The notes beneath the pieces were generated by a model that worked only from the letters and a program-made list of their open reading frames with translations, was not told the origin of the DNA and ran no database searches. 7,486 bases of DNA from a bacterium BMS3Abin14 (GTDB taxonomy: Bacteria; BMS3Abin14): contig BDTG01000023.1 of NCBI GenBank assembly GCA_002897695.1, forward strand, positions 1-7,486, in the 5' to 3' direction. Numbering within the stretch: position 1 is the stretch's first letter; each line of letters opens with the position of its first letter. Position numbers and translations under genes: made by a program. Shown here piece by piece: positions 1,891-6,850 of the stretch.

Positions 1891-1960
1891 TAACCTGAAC
1901 GAGCGGGCGAGAGAAAAGGGTTTTCAGTTGCGAAGGTGCCGGTAGCTGGACAGGGGCACA

Positions 1961-1965
1961 GGAGG
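1961..1965 (+). promoter_or_regulatory. Ribosome binding site that fixes the start at 1972
   Basis: GGAGG lies six bases before the ATG at 1972. The open frame extends back to a GTG at 1936, but that codon has no comparable upstream site and would add twelve polar residues ahead of the signal peptide. Confidence 0.8.
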
Positions 1966-1971
1966 ATAAAA

Positions 1972-3933
1972 ATGAAAGTTTCCATGTCTAAAACTGTTTT
2001 TGCTGTTCTTGCCGCCGCCGCTGTATTGCTGGGCAGCCAGTGGGCATCGGCCGCCAACCTGCCCACATGGGGAGGTCAGACGACCACCAATCAACCCCAG
2101 CCGATACAGCGGTCCCAACCGACGATCGTCTCACAGCCGGCTGCCAACGTTGCCTTGTCAGTGCAGATCCCTCAGCCCGGCACCTGGACAGCACCTGGAA
2201 CAACTTCTGGAACCAGTTCGGGCGCCACGGTAATTACCCCCACGCAGCGGCCCCGGTCCTTCCAACCAAAGGCCCGGTCCATGGTGACCCCACGCACCGG
2301 TTTTTCCAACAGAGGGATAAACTTTCAGCCGAAAGCTCTCGGCCAGGTTGAGGAGAGAAGGGCTTCCGGCTTCGGCCCACAGCTTCCCGCCATCGCTCCG
2401 GTTACCACCTGCTCCGGCTACAGGCAGACCCCTGATGTCGACCGTCTTACCGCCCCCCCCAGATACCTTCCCTATCAGTTGGCAACATTCACCCCTAGAT
2501 CCGCTCCGGGAGCCGACCTCCACTGCACCGATTTGAGAGGCGCATTTCTGTACCGTGTTGATTTCAAAGGAGCCAACCTCCGGGGTGCGAATCTGTCCGG
2601 AGTTGATCTTCTTGGAGCTGATTTTACGGGGGCTTTTCTCGAAGATGCCGACATGACAGGAGCGGACGCTGTAGCCGCGAATTTTACAAACGCCAGGCTG
2701 AACCGTACCAATTTAAGTAATACGATCATTGAGAAAGCAAACGGCGCGGATTTCAGAGGAGCGATTATCAACAATTTGGGTTTGGCCGGTTCCCTGAAGA
2801 ATGCGCATTTTGACGGCCTGGATTTCAGGAAACTTAGAACGTTTAGCTCTGGCCTTGGTGCAGATTTTTCCGGAGGAACCTTTGCGGGCACCAATTTTTC
2901 TGGTATTTCCATCCACCTCTCGGATTTTTCCAACGCCTATCTGGTTAGGGATTCATTTGAGAATGCCAGCATTTCGGCCGCAAAATTCGTCGGGGCGGAT
3001 CTTTCCCTGGCGGATTTTTCCAATGCTCTTCTACGTGAGATTGATTTCTCCAACGCCACATTAACAGGGGCAAAGTTCATAGCAACTGAGTCAGGGTATA
3101 TGGGGCCTAGTGGGCGTTTGGCGGATAGAGGCAACTCCCTGGTGGAACCTCGCCTGGATTTTACCAATGCCATGGCTGTAGATACGGATTTTTCACGGGC
3201 TTATTTGTATAAAGAGGTTTTCAAGGGAACAAATATGTTGCGGGCCATTTTTGACGGGGCCATGTTAAGAAATTCCGTTTTTTCGAAAAACAACCTGACA
3301 GAGGCCAGTTTCGTCGGAAGTGATCTGAGAGAATCGTTTTTTAACGGAGTTAATGCAGAAAAGGCAAGGCTCGATTCTTCAAAACTGGCAGGCAGTTTTA
3401 TTAGTGGGTCGAATTTCAAGCAGGCCAGTATGTCTAACGTGGAGATGAATTATTCAAAAATTCACGATGCCAGCTTCTACCAGGCAAATCTGGAGCAGTC
3501 CGGACTTATAAACTCAGAGTTCAAATCGGTGGACCTGAGGATGGCTAATTTTCAGGGTTCTGATTTGTCCCATAGCGTGTTTACTCCTTCCACCCAGCTT
3601 AACGGTGCCAACTTTACCGGTTCCAACTTGACCGCCATTTGGGAGTGTTCTCTTATTCTTCATCCCCGAAATTCTTACCAACCTTCCACATGTCAGAATG
3701 GTTTTGTAAAGCCCCTTGATCTTCGCAGCGTGAACTTCCGCAATGCTGATTTCAGCAGTGTCCGGCTCTATGGTAGTGATTTCAGAAACAGCAATCTTTC
3801 AGGCTCAAATCTGGATACTTTTGAAGAGAAGGACAAGGATCCAAATATTACGTATGAGGGCAAATTGGAGGGCGAGAGGCATGGGTACAAATTATCGGGC
3901 GCGATCATGCCTGACGGTACGGTTCATCCATAG
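1972..3933 (+). CDS. Large exported pentapeptide-repeat protein with an LPTWGG N-terminal module
   Basis: The product is 653 residues. A signal peptide ends at ASA (residue 27). The mature N-terminus is ANLPTWGGQTTTN, followed by a Pro/Gln/Ser/Thr-rich disordered-looking linker to about residue 180. From A181 to about residue 614 the sequence follows the A(D/N)Lxx / xDFSN pentapeptide pattern, for example GANLRGANLSG and GADFTGAF. Such repeats are known to fold into a right-handed quadrilateral beta-helix with about 20 residues per coil, so this stretch would make roughly 20 coils. Two interruptions break it: residues about 373-394, and about 558-580 with C559 and C574, which could form a disulphide loop. 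The tail ends in the common LSGAIMPDGT motif. The shared N-terminal module links it to the protein at 4569-5327. Function is unknown; a rod-like surface or periplasmic scaffold is an inference. Confidence 0.92.
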   Translation: MKVSMSKTVFAVLAAAAVLLGSQWASAANLPTWGGQTTTNQPQPIQRSQPTIVSQPAANVALSVQIPQPGTWTAPGTTSGTSSGATVITPTQRPRSFQPKARSMVTPRTGFSNRGINFQPKALGQVEERRASGFGPQLPAIAPVTTCSGYRQTPDVDRLTAPPRYLPYQLATFTPRSAPGADLHCTDLRGAFLYRVDFKGANLRGANLSGVDLLGADFTGAFLEDADMTGADAVAANFTNARLNRTNLSNTIIEKANGADFRGAIINNLGLAGSLKNAHFDGLDFRKLRTFSSGLGADFSGGTFAGTNFSGISIHLSDFSNAYLVRDSFENASISAAKFVGADLSLADFSNALLREIDFSNATLTGAKFIATESGYMGPSGRLADRGNSLVEPRLDFTNAMAVDTDFSRAYLYKEVFKGTNMLRAIFDGAMLRNSVFSKNNLTEASFVGSDLRESFFNGVNAEKARLDSSKLAGSFISGSNFKQASMSNVEMNYSKIHDASFYQANLEQSGLINSEFKSVDLRMANFQGSDLSHSVFTPSTQLNGANFTGSNLTAIWECSLILHPRNSYQPSTCQNGFVKPLDLRSVNFRNADFSSVRLYGSDFRNSNLSGSNLDTFEEKDKDPNITYEGKLEGERHGYKLSGAIMPDGTVHP

Positions 3934-3945
3934 GCTGGTTAATCG

Positions 3946-3963
3946 CTGAGGTTCGGCCCCACT
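3946..3963 (+). repeat. 18-base intergenic motif, copy 1
   Basis: CTGAGGTTCGGCCCCACT differs at two positions from the three-copy consensus TTGAGGTCCGGCCCCACT. It starts 13 bases after the preceding stop codon and ends 21 bases before the ATG at 3985. The ribosome binding site GGGAG (3973-3977) lies between motif and start. Confidence 0.7.
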
Positions 3964-3984: not shown

Positions 3985-4554
3985 ATGAATAATTTCCTGT
4001 CAAAAGCCACTTTAGCAATTGTTGTTGCCATGAGCTTTCTCCTGGGCAGCGCGCTGGCATACGCCGAGCCGTTTGCTCCAGGGGTTGAGGTTCCGGACGC
4101 CCGCTACAAGGAGTTCTTTCCAGACACCTCCAGGGAAATGGCGGAGATGACGGAACAGTGGCCGATTGTGATCAAGGAGAATATCCCGGACGCATCCGAG
4201 TTAGCTGCACCAGCATACCCGGGGGCGGTGGTCGTTAAACTGCTTGGACGTGCGCGGGTTGGGCGTTCTGAGTACATCGGTCTTGCCAGCGTTCAGTTGG
4301 TAAGCGAGGACACTTTCGAGAAAGTACACGATTTCTATTCAAAGAATCTTACAGGCTGGAATAAGAAGACTTATTCAAACGAGGATACTCACTGGGCCAA
4401 GGCCGGTGAAGTCGAAGTTAATTCCGGGGCTATGAAGGAGCCCCATGTGTGGGTTGCCAGCTTTTCGCAACTGGGCGGTGGTGGTGAGTGGTTCAGGAAG
4501 CTTGTGCCTGAAAGCCGAACACTTATCGAAGTGTACTACATGCCCGAAAAATAG
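3985..4554 (+). CDS. Exported protein, third and largest member of the paralog family
   Basis: The product is 189 residues and the ATG follows GGGAG by seven bases. The signal peptide (MNNFLSKATLAIVVAMSFLL) likely ends after AYA near residue 27. An extra segment of about 50 residues, rich in acidic residues and Pro, precedes the family core. The core then runs ELAAPAYPGAVVV, a strand with IGLASVQLVS, a helix EKVHDFYSKNLTGWNKK, and a C-terminus ending LIEVYYMPEK. This is the same order as the two paralogs at 941 and 1372, with a longer loop containing SQLGGGGEW. No catalytic residues are apparent. The next gene follows after 14 bases, so the two are very probably co-translated or co-transcribed. 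Function is unknown, and a periplasmic or secreted location is inferred. Confidence 0.88.
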   Translation: MNNFLSKATLAIVVAMSFLLGSALAYAEPFAPGVEVPDARYKEFFPDTSREMAEMTEQWPIVIKENIPDASELAAPAYPGAVVVKLLGRARVGRSEYIGLASVQLVSEDTFEKVHDFYSKNLTGWNKKTYSNEDTHWAKAGEVEVNSGAMKEPHVWVASFSQLGGGGEWFRKLVPESRTLIEVYYMPEK

Positions 4555-4568
4555 ATCACGGAGGAGAT

Positions 4569-5327
4569 ATGGTAAAAGAAATGAGGTCTTTCACATCTCA
4601 ATCTGTAATTGCCGTTTTTGTTTTCGCGGCCATTCTGTTGAACAGCACATGGGCTTCCGCCGGCAGCCTGCCCACCTGGGGCGGAGCAACTACTACCAAC
4701 AAGTTGCGTGTCCAGCAGCCCAGACAGCCTATCGCCTCGCAGCCAGCCGTCAACACCGCGCAGACAGTGCAGCTAACACAGCCAGGTATACGAACACGAA
4801 CGACCCCCAGGACCACATCGAGTTCCACTGTTTTAACTCCCATGCAACAGCGTGTATCCCAGCCTACGATCGAGCAGGTAGACAGGCAGGCAGACGGGCA
4901 GGTAGACAGGCAAGCAGAAACACCCATGAGTATCGCGCAGGATGAGTGTGTTCTTTACCTAGAATACACGAACCCTGCCTATTCTGAATTGGGGATGCAG
5001 ACCGCCGGCTTTGGGACAGTGATTTTGCCATCCGAAGACGAGTTGGCTGCTGCTATGGCTAACGGTGGTCCATACATATCAAATTATATTGTCTTGGAAA
5101 AAGGCGATTACAAGGCCATGTACCTGCCGGAGCTTATATTACTGCAGAATCTCAATAAAAATAATTCCGTGGAATTTCTCGTACGGCTTCCGGGGATCAA
5201 TATGACGGGTGCCGGCCTAGACGACTGGACGAAGGGTAAAAAGCGTAGCTCCACGTTAAGACCCGGCGAAAGTGCTCAATTCGATGAAGGTAGCGGGACG
5301 ACATTGATCAAGGTACGTTGCCCATAA
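4569..5327 (+). CDS. Exported protein with an LPTWGG N-terminal module and an unrecognised C-terminal domain
   Basis: The product is 252 residues. GGAGGAG ends two bases before the ATG at 4569 (core GGAG spacing five). A second in-frame ATG at 4581 is possible but less well placed. The signal peptide likely ends at WASA near residue 31. The mature part opens SLPTWGGATTTN and a Pro/Gln/Thr-rich linker (SQPAVNTAQTVQ, QPGIR, TVLTPMQQ) that matches the start of the pentapeptide protein at 1972. Two copies of an eight-residue unit (QVDRQADG, QVDRQAET) end the linker. The C-terminal domain (about 123-252) begins with C127 and ends with C251, which could pair. It contains a beta-like core (FGTVILPS, NYIVLEKGDYKAMYL, VEFLVRLPGI). 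I do not recognise it. The shared N-terminus with a different C-terminal domain points to a modular architecture. Confidence 0.87.
   Translation: MVKEMRSFTSQSVIAVFVFAAILLNSTWASAGSLPTWGGATTTNKLRVQQPRQPIASQPAVNTAQTVQLTQPGIRTRTTPRTTSSSTVLTPMQQRVSQPTIEQVDRQADGQVDRQAETPMSIAQDECVLYLEYTNPAYSELGMQTAGFGTVILPSEDELAAAMANGGPYISNYIVLEKGDYKAMYLPELILLQNLNKNNSVEFLVRLPGINMTGAGLDDWTKGKKRSSTLRPGESAQFDEGSGTTLIKVRCP
4874..4918 (+). repeat. Two tandem copies of a 24-base unit inside the linker
   Basis: GCAGGTAGACAGGCAGGCAGA (4874-4894) recurs at 4898-4918 with one mismatch, a period of 24 bases. It encodes two copies of an eight-residue QVDRQA-like unit. Copy number could vary between strains by slippage. Confidence 0.75.
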
Positions 5328-5349: not shown

Positions 5350-5367
5350 TTGAGCTCCGGCCCCACT
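5350..5367 (+). repeat. 18-base intergenic motif, copy 2
   Basis: TTGAGCTCCGGCCCCACT differs from the three-copy consensus at one position. It begins 22 bases after the preceding stop and ends 18 bases before the ATG at 5386, with AAGGAG (5375-5380) in between. Confidence 0.7.
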
Positions 5368-5385
5368 CCTACAAAAGGAGAATTA

Positions 5386-5565
5386 ATGTCAGATGTAATT
5401 GACTACAAAATCCACGGGAACGACATGCAGATCGTGGAGGTCGAGCTGGATCCCGGTGAGGGAGTGCGGGGCGAGGGTGTAGGTCCTCTTGCACCGGTTC
5501 TGGCCAACACCAGCGATGGGGGGCAAGCGACGGCTTCCGGGTTTAAGCGCTCGGCTTCGCCGTGA
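5386..5565 (+). pseudogene. Truncated 5' end of an AIM24/TIGR00266-family gene running into a repeat
   Basis: The ATG at 5386 has AAGGAG five bases upstream. The first 30 residues (MSDVIDYKIHGND, then MQIVEVELDPGEGVRGE) match from memory the highly conserved start of the bacterial AIM24/TIGR00266 proteins. There the text normally continues with AEAGAMMYM-like residues and the protein runs to well over 200 residues. Here the resemblance stops at about position 5475. The frame continues for some 29 low-complexity residues and ends at 5565, inside a structured repeat. No later part of the gene is seen downstream in any frame. Unlike its neighbours it has no signal peptide. The best reading is a gene remnant cut by insertion of, or recombination with, the repeat. 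A recently created short peptide gene cannot be excluded. An upstream in-frame ATG at 5350 overlaps the 18-base motif and is unlikely to be used. Confidence 0.7.
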
Positions 5566-5596
5566 ACCAGCTGCGCTTCGCATTTAACCCGGAGCC
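5532..5596. repeat. Structured element that can form a stem with two inner hairpins
   Basis: GGCTTCCGGGTT (5532-5543) pairs with AACCCGGAGCC (5586-5596) with one bulged base. The enclosed sequence contains two further small hairpins: CGGC-TTC-GCCG (5552-5562) and TGCG-CTT-CGCA (5572-5582). Together they give a three-way-junction or cloverleaf-like fold on either strand. The layout resembles REP/MITE-like intergenic repeats. It overlaps the end of the AIM24 remnant and could mark the break point. Confidence 0.65.
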
Positions 5597-5609
5597 CGCC
5601 GCCAAAAAC

Positions 5610-6832: not shown

Positions 6833-6850
6833 TTGAGGTCCGACCCCACT
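6833..6850 (+). repeat. 18-base intergenic motif, copy 3
   Basis: TTGAGGTCCGACCCCACT differs from the three-copy consensus at one position. It starts 15 bases after the preceding stop codon and ends 31 bases before the ATG at 6882. In this copy the core GGTC-C-GACC is a perfect palindrome. Confidence 0.7.

Follow-up and report, generated by a model that had tools for sequence, protein, structure and literature searches.

A candidate N-terminal export-and-tether cassette shared by exported proteins of one bacterial locus

Introduction

In Borrelia burgdorferi, a single promoter, leader and localisation sequence is joined to Erp protein bodies of many origins (PMC10016077). The locus described here resembles this Erp (OspEF-related, upstream homology box) arrangement in that an exported family carries one leader and mature N-terminal sequence on unrelated bodies (PMC10016077), and in the recombination between front and body, which is indicated here by trees, AU tests and segment identities. 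However, Erp proteins are lipoproteins with a five-residue sorting sequence and are encoded on prophages (PMC10016077), whereas the cassette described here has no lipobox cysteine, its mature tag spans 45-90 residues, and the tagged genes lie in one syntenic block and not on a recognised prophage. Our best reading is that the cassette would be organised like the Borrelia leader and sorting sequences, in a non-lipidated and longer form, and no membership of that family is claimed.

The mycobacterial PE domain is helical and is used by type VII secretion. PE/PPE proteins are a looser analogue, in which diverse C-terminal parts follow a conserved N-terminal region of ~110 residues that mediates export and localisation (PMC3218021). 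The proteins studied here differ in having a Sec-type signal peptide followed by a Pro/Gln/Thr tail. Polymorphic toxins, also a looser analogue, share a constant front and a variable back (PMC3482391), but the tagged bodies have neither a recognised toxin domain nor a neighbouring immunity family. Finally, the secreted protein YjbI matches one of our proteins by description, with a signal peptide, a pentapeptide beta-helix and exactly two helix-flanking cysteine pairs, but YjbI comprises 183 residues without a long tagged tail, compared with 653 residues including the tail in our protein (PMC12864828).

Results and Discussion

Two exported proteins share an N-terminal segment

The DNA analysed (hereafter the window) is a complete contig of 7486 bases (C23) from a 2.28 Mb MAG (G000). 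The main genes on its + strand all appear to encode exported products, two of which, a pentapeptide protein and a 252-residue protein (Table 1), have ~95-99 N-terminal residues in common. BLASTP aligns these two proteins with 52/99 identities (E 1e-18), signal peptide included, and their mature parts score 154, compared with 39.6 +/- 6.6 for composition-preserving shuffles (Z 17). Both carry a signal peptide ending in AxA, followed by (A/G)(N/S)LPTWGGxTTTN, SQPAxNxA, VQ, QPG and TVxTPxQ. These shared motifs had been proposed in a sequence-only reading of the window, as had a match between the DNA from 2041 and from 4650, which is indeed exactly 29/35 bases and is the best such ungapped match on the + strand of the window, the sole pair of 35-base segments to reach 29. 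That reading had also placed the likeness right after the signal peptide. The mature part is shared as claimed, but the likeness also covers the signal peptide and extends in related genes to the ribosome-binding leader.

By their sequences, the downstream bodies of the two proteins are unrelated, again as previously proposed: the pentapeptide protein has 13 Pfam PF00805 stretches, whereas the body of the 252-residue protein has no family match in the Pfam search. The only cysteines of the pentapeptide protein (147, 185, 559 and 574) form two pairs flanking the helix, and the 252-type body lies between two cysteines; because of this placement, the bodies look periplasmic or surface-exposed. 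The tag consists of 74-77% P/Q/T/S/N/A/G and is almost uncharged. We infer a Sec-type signal peptide with AxA cleavage, a disordered tail and an envelope location. AlphaFold models, single-sequence and two-sequence, were uninformative (pLDDT 34 and 35).

Two familiar sorting motifs were considered and rejected. In sortase substrates LPXTG stands near the C-terminus, ahead of a membrane segment and a positive tail. LPTWGG is N-terminal, and the C-termini read ...GAIMPDGTVHP and ...LIKVRCP, so an LPXTG-like motif does not apply. A lipoprotein motif is likewise rejected, since there is no cysteine at the cleavage site; in an alignment of all nine tagged proteins described below, no row has a cysteine near this site.

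Table 1. Parts of the tagged genes and of a related gene in the window
Feature	Position	Strand	Basis
5' leader and ribosome-binding region, upstream of pentapeptide gene	1900..1971	+	
Pentapeptide protein, signal peptide (MKVSMSKTVFAVLAAAAVLLGSQWASA)	1972..2052	+	sequence reading, alignment
Pentapeptide protein, mature N-terminal tag, residues 28-70 (ANLPTWGGQTTTNQPQPIQRSQPTIVSQPAANVALSVQIPQPG)	2053..2181	+	
Pentapeptide protein, Pro/Thr/Ser-rich linker, residues 71-125; also kept in pentapeptide orthologues	2182..2346	+	
Pentapeptide protein, body, cysteine-flanked pentapeptide-repeat (beta-helix), residues 126-653	2347..3930	+	
Signal peptide of the 3985-4554 gene; no tag behind	3985..4065	+	
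252-residue protein, signal peptide; start 4569 or 4581	4581..4661	+	
252-residue protein, mature N-terminal tag, residues 28-69 (GSLPTWGGATTTNKLRVQQPRQPIASQPAVNTAQTVQLTQPG)	4662..4787	+	
252-residue protein, variable linker, contains 12-base tandem repeat (EQVDRQADGQVDRQ)	4788..4934	+	
252-residue protein, body, ~130 residues between two cysteines, no known family; occurs only behind tag	4935..5324	+	

The cassette is confined to one lineage

A profile search over 386 genomes detected the cassette on nine proteins from three of the lineage's 12 genomes, and no cassette was found in the 374 bacterial genomes outside it. This lineage is of phylum level and is represented by few sampled genomes, with searches by class and by phylum returning the same 12. 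The genome of the window has two copies only, both in the window. Five copies are present in G010, an incomplete MAG (71%), where four consecutive genes on C83 (L038) encode pentapeptide, 329-, 478- and 252-type proteins and a second pentapeptide gene resides on C182 (L039). The remaining two are in G011 (L037, JALHUC010000112.1): a 252-type gene and a gene whose body, a further one, is interrupted where the contig stops. G010 and G011 represent two genera other than that of the window's genome.

In 9/9 proteins the tag lies directly behind a signal peptide with an AxA-like end. Behind it are five bodies: the pentapeptide helix, the 130-residue body, two larger unknown bodies and the one truncated at the contig end. 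Searches of Pfam, NCBIfam, PADLOC and PHROGs found no family for any body other than the pentapeptide one, a plasmid search with the 252-type protein gave no match, and a literature search for LPTWGG found no paper. The tag is thus neither limited to the two window paralogues nor found at random positions (nine proteins, none at random). The sequence-only reading had named many hits behind signal peptides with diverse bodies as support for its view. Position and diversity hold for the nine copies in three genomes, but the breadth does not, since only one lineage has the tag. Because it is absent from the 374 other genomes, the cassette, so far confined to this lineage, is not a general sorting signal, and this narrow distribution limits its interest.

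The tagged genes are clustered in one syntenic block. At the syntenic locus (L041) of the same-genus genome G001, orthologues of the 914, 1372 and 5663 genes are present without any tagged genes. The tagged genes thus appear to be a block, all in one direction, that was gained or lost at a fixed place, and they probably form one transcription unit.

The tag is homologous and constrained

All 36 pairs of mature tags reach Z 8-26 against composition-preserving shuffles, whereas linkers of untagged proteins from the same locus mostly stay below Z 2. Chance or composition as the source of the likeness is ruled out by these shuffles, which indicate that the tags are homologous sequences and not merely alike in composition. 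Kinship with the Pro/Gln-rich linkers of a PASTA protein from the same locus, which contains PQWGG, was also rejected, since these mostly align no better than composition predicts (Z mostly below 2, a few at 4-5).

Twelve columns are invariant in the nine proteins (A27, W33, T38, T39, Q46, S54, P56, A57, A61, V64, Q65 and P75), and G34-G35 are present in 8/9. The WGG motif is missing in the 252-type protein of G010 (GNIRGWTTTN), and therefore is not strictly required. Indels fall in the Pro/Gln part of the tag. Nei-Gojobori estimates of dN/dS for the tag range from 0.12 to 0.52, mostly 0.15-0.35, with 0.4-0.75 synonymous differences per site; near-saturation of the synonymous sites makes these ratios approximate in absolute terms, and comparison between regions is safer. 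Among orthologues, tag identity is 0.55-0.75 compared with 0.57-0.63 for the pentapeptide body, and the 252-type body (0.47-0.60) and 252-type linker (0.39-0.63) are both below the tag. These values indicate protein-level constraint on the tag that is about as strong as that on folded bodies.

Gene 5' ends are exchanged

Counterparts of the leader in Table 1 lie upstream of tagged or signal-peptide-sharing genes in G010 and G011, and in G001 the counterpart sits at the same place, upstream of the AIM24 gene. Comparison of the leader with Rfam gave chance matches only and no known RNA element. It is also not a dispersed repeat, since matches over its full length are confined to this locus (G000, G010 and G001).

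The extent of sharing varies from gene to gene. The 252-type gene of G011 and the pentapeptide gene of the window have different bodies and 81% DNA identity over 182 bases, from the leader through the signal peptide and tag. Gene L037 3947 has the leader and signal peptide in common with tagged genes and diverges from the cleavage site on, and the signal peptide DNA of the 3985-4554 gene is 0.70-0.72 identical to that of tagged genes in G010. Conversely, the pentapeptide and 329-type genes of G010 share mainly the tag (0.84, versus 0.36 for the leader and 0.59 for the signal peptide). The closest tags belong to different bodies within one genome (DNA identity 0.82-0.85), with the window pair at only 0.65.

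Trees built on the signal peptide and tag unite three G010 genes, each with a different body, in a single clade (support 100/98 for protein and 100/99 for DNA). AU tests reject a tree that forces the pentapeptide genes into one group (0.0045 protein, 0.0087 DNA) as well as one that does so for the 252-type genes (0.027 protein, 0.0002 DNA), and both this clade and the tests of grouping by body rest on one incomplete MAG. When only the mature tag is used, the topology is unchanged but support is weak (73/77), and the AU values of 0.06 and 0.16 are not significant. The nearest relatives thus differ among leader, signal peptide, tag and body, and this, together with the rejection of grouping by body, indicates that 5' ends have been exchanged between exported-protein genes. 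Much of the likeness, leader and signal peptide included, stems from such exchange and homogenisation, which requires no docking function.

Possible roles of the tail

We propose that the stretch serves as an N-terminal export-and-tether cassette that the exported-protein genes at one locus exchange with one another, a reading that we regard as evenly balanced between right and wrong. The Sec-type signal peptide would export the protein through the inner membrane and be cleaved at AxA, exposing a mature N-terminus of the form GNLPxWGGxTTTxQPQ...SQPAxNxAxTVQ...PGTWTxPGTTS...TVxTPxQQP. This tail of ~45-90 residues, nearly uncharged and probably disordered, would most likely act as a flexible tether that keeps different bodies at one envelope site via a common partner, which the invariant Trp-Gly-Gly and SQPA/VQ positions may contact. 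Such a partner is our best guess, held with about half confidence, because the constraint and the fixed Trp-Gly-Gly, SQPA and TVQ exceed the needs of a spacer.

A docking, sorting or anchoring role had been suggested from the sequence. The match in constraint between the tag and folded bodies agrees with this suggestion, but the lineage restriction and the large contribution of 5'-end exchange do not, and docking is best called plausible. More tentative is the specific version, in which the disordered LPxWGG...SQPAxNxA...TVQ tail would be a lineage-specific signal read by one dedicated envelope receptor after signal peptide removal, with new bodies recruited by 5'-end exchange. Should the tail prove to be a docking signal, front exchange would offer a simple route for adding proteins to one envelope assembly. 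An uncultured phylum would then have a non-lipidated equivalent of the Borrelia leader and sorting module, and the cassette would provide a ready handle for finding the partner. Even without docking, the locus presents gene 5' ends that evolve as a mosaic and a Pro/Gln/Thr-rich tail that is as constrained as folded domains.

The main rival to docking, and one that we hold just as tentatively as the dedicated receptor, is that the tail only sets bodies apart from the membrane or one another and owes its likeness to gene conversion of neighbouring 5' ends. The almost chargeless composition, dominated by P/Q/T/S/N/A/G, fits a passive spacer, as do the copying of the leader and signal peptide and the finding that same-genome neighbours carry the closest tags; homogenisation within a genome could maintain the likeness of the tags even if they had no role in contacts. 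However, across genera dN is only ~0.2-0.3 while synonymous sites are near saturation, the 252-type tag is better kept than the adjoining linker, and the twelve invariant columns hold in all nine proteins.

It is unlikely that selection instead favours strong, co-ordinated expression and export through the leader, start region and signal peptide, with the tag merely carried in the exchange tract. Three tagless genes (L037 3947, L042 4104 and L041 5400) do have the leader and signal peptide in common with tagged genes, and some pairs are closer in signal peptide than in tag (dS 0.16 versus 1.2 for the window pentapeptide gene and the G011 252-type gene), yet several pairs share the tag and not the leader or signal peptide, as in the G010 pair above, and a tag that merely hitchhiked would not have a dN/dS of ~0.2. 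Slightly less probable still is an O-glycosylated stalk, in which the Thr/Ser/Pro-rich tail would be conserved as a substrate for extracytoplasmic modification and not as a ligand. TTT and TTSSPTV runs in most copies and the near lack of charge would suit such a stalk, but glycosylation of this kind depends on the density of Ser/Thr and does not call for Trp, Gly, Gln and Val at set sites. A trafficking module for polymorphic effectors is very improbable: the constant front, differing bodies and recombination recall the layout described for polymorphic toxins (PMC3482391), but Pfam, NCBIfam, PADLOC and PHROGs reveal no toxin, immunity or secretion-system family in the bodies, which are tandem complete genes and not cassettes behind one gene, and no small immunity-like gene follows each body.

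Other features of the locus

Three small exported proteins (914-1342, 1372-1791 and 3985-4554) are distantly related. They show a YPG/YKG...FY/WY...W pattern, belong to no curated family and have further copies in G010, G011 and G001. A PASTA-domain protein with a long Pro/Gln/Thr linker is encoded at the same locus (L041 3657-5201, L037 3-884 and L042 2-1563), and the body of the G010 PASTA protein bears a weak likeness to the tagged 478-type body (E 5e-4). Upstream of the second G010 pentapeptide gene, L039 1095-1196 is what is left of a 329-type tail and contains a stop codon, which suggests that this genome has another copy of the tagged array in decay.

The linker of the 252-residue protein contains a 12-base tandem repeat at 4871-4918 (VDRQADGQVDRQ) that is missing in the G011 orthologue. 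Just past gene ends, three copies of GAGNTYCGRCCCCACT (3948-3963, 5352-5367 and 6835-6850; chance expectation 0.07) look like a short dispersed intergenic repeat. The 5376-5524 segment is a deletion scar. In it, the start of the AIM24 gene that follows the leader in G001 (83% to L041 7403-7502) is fused without a gap to the last part of an OmpA-like gene (83% to L041 8567-8626); in G001 these are separate neighbours. Behind this scar, 5525-5600 holds a palindrome-like GGGTTTAAGCGCTCGGCTTCGCCG...GCATTTAACCC that, by reading, resembles a REP-type element.
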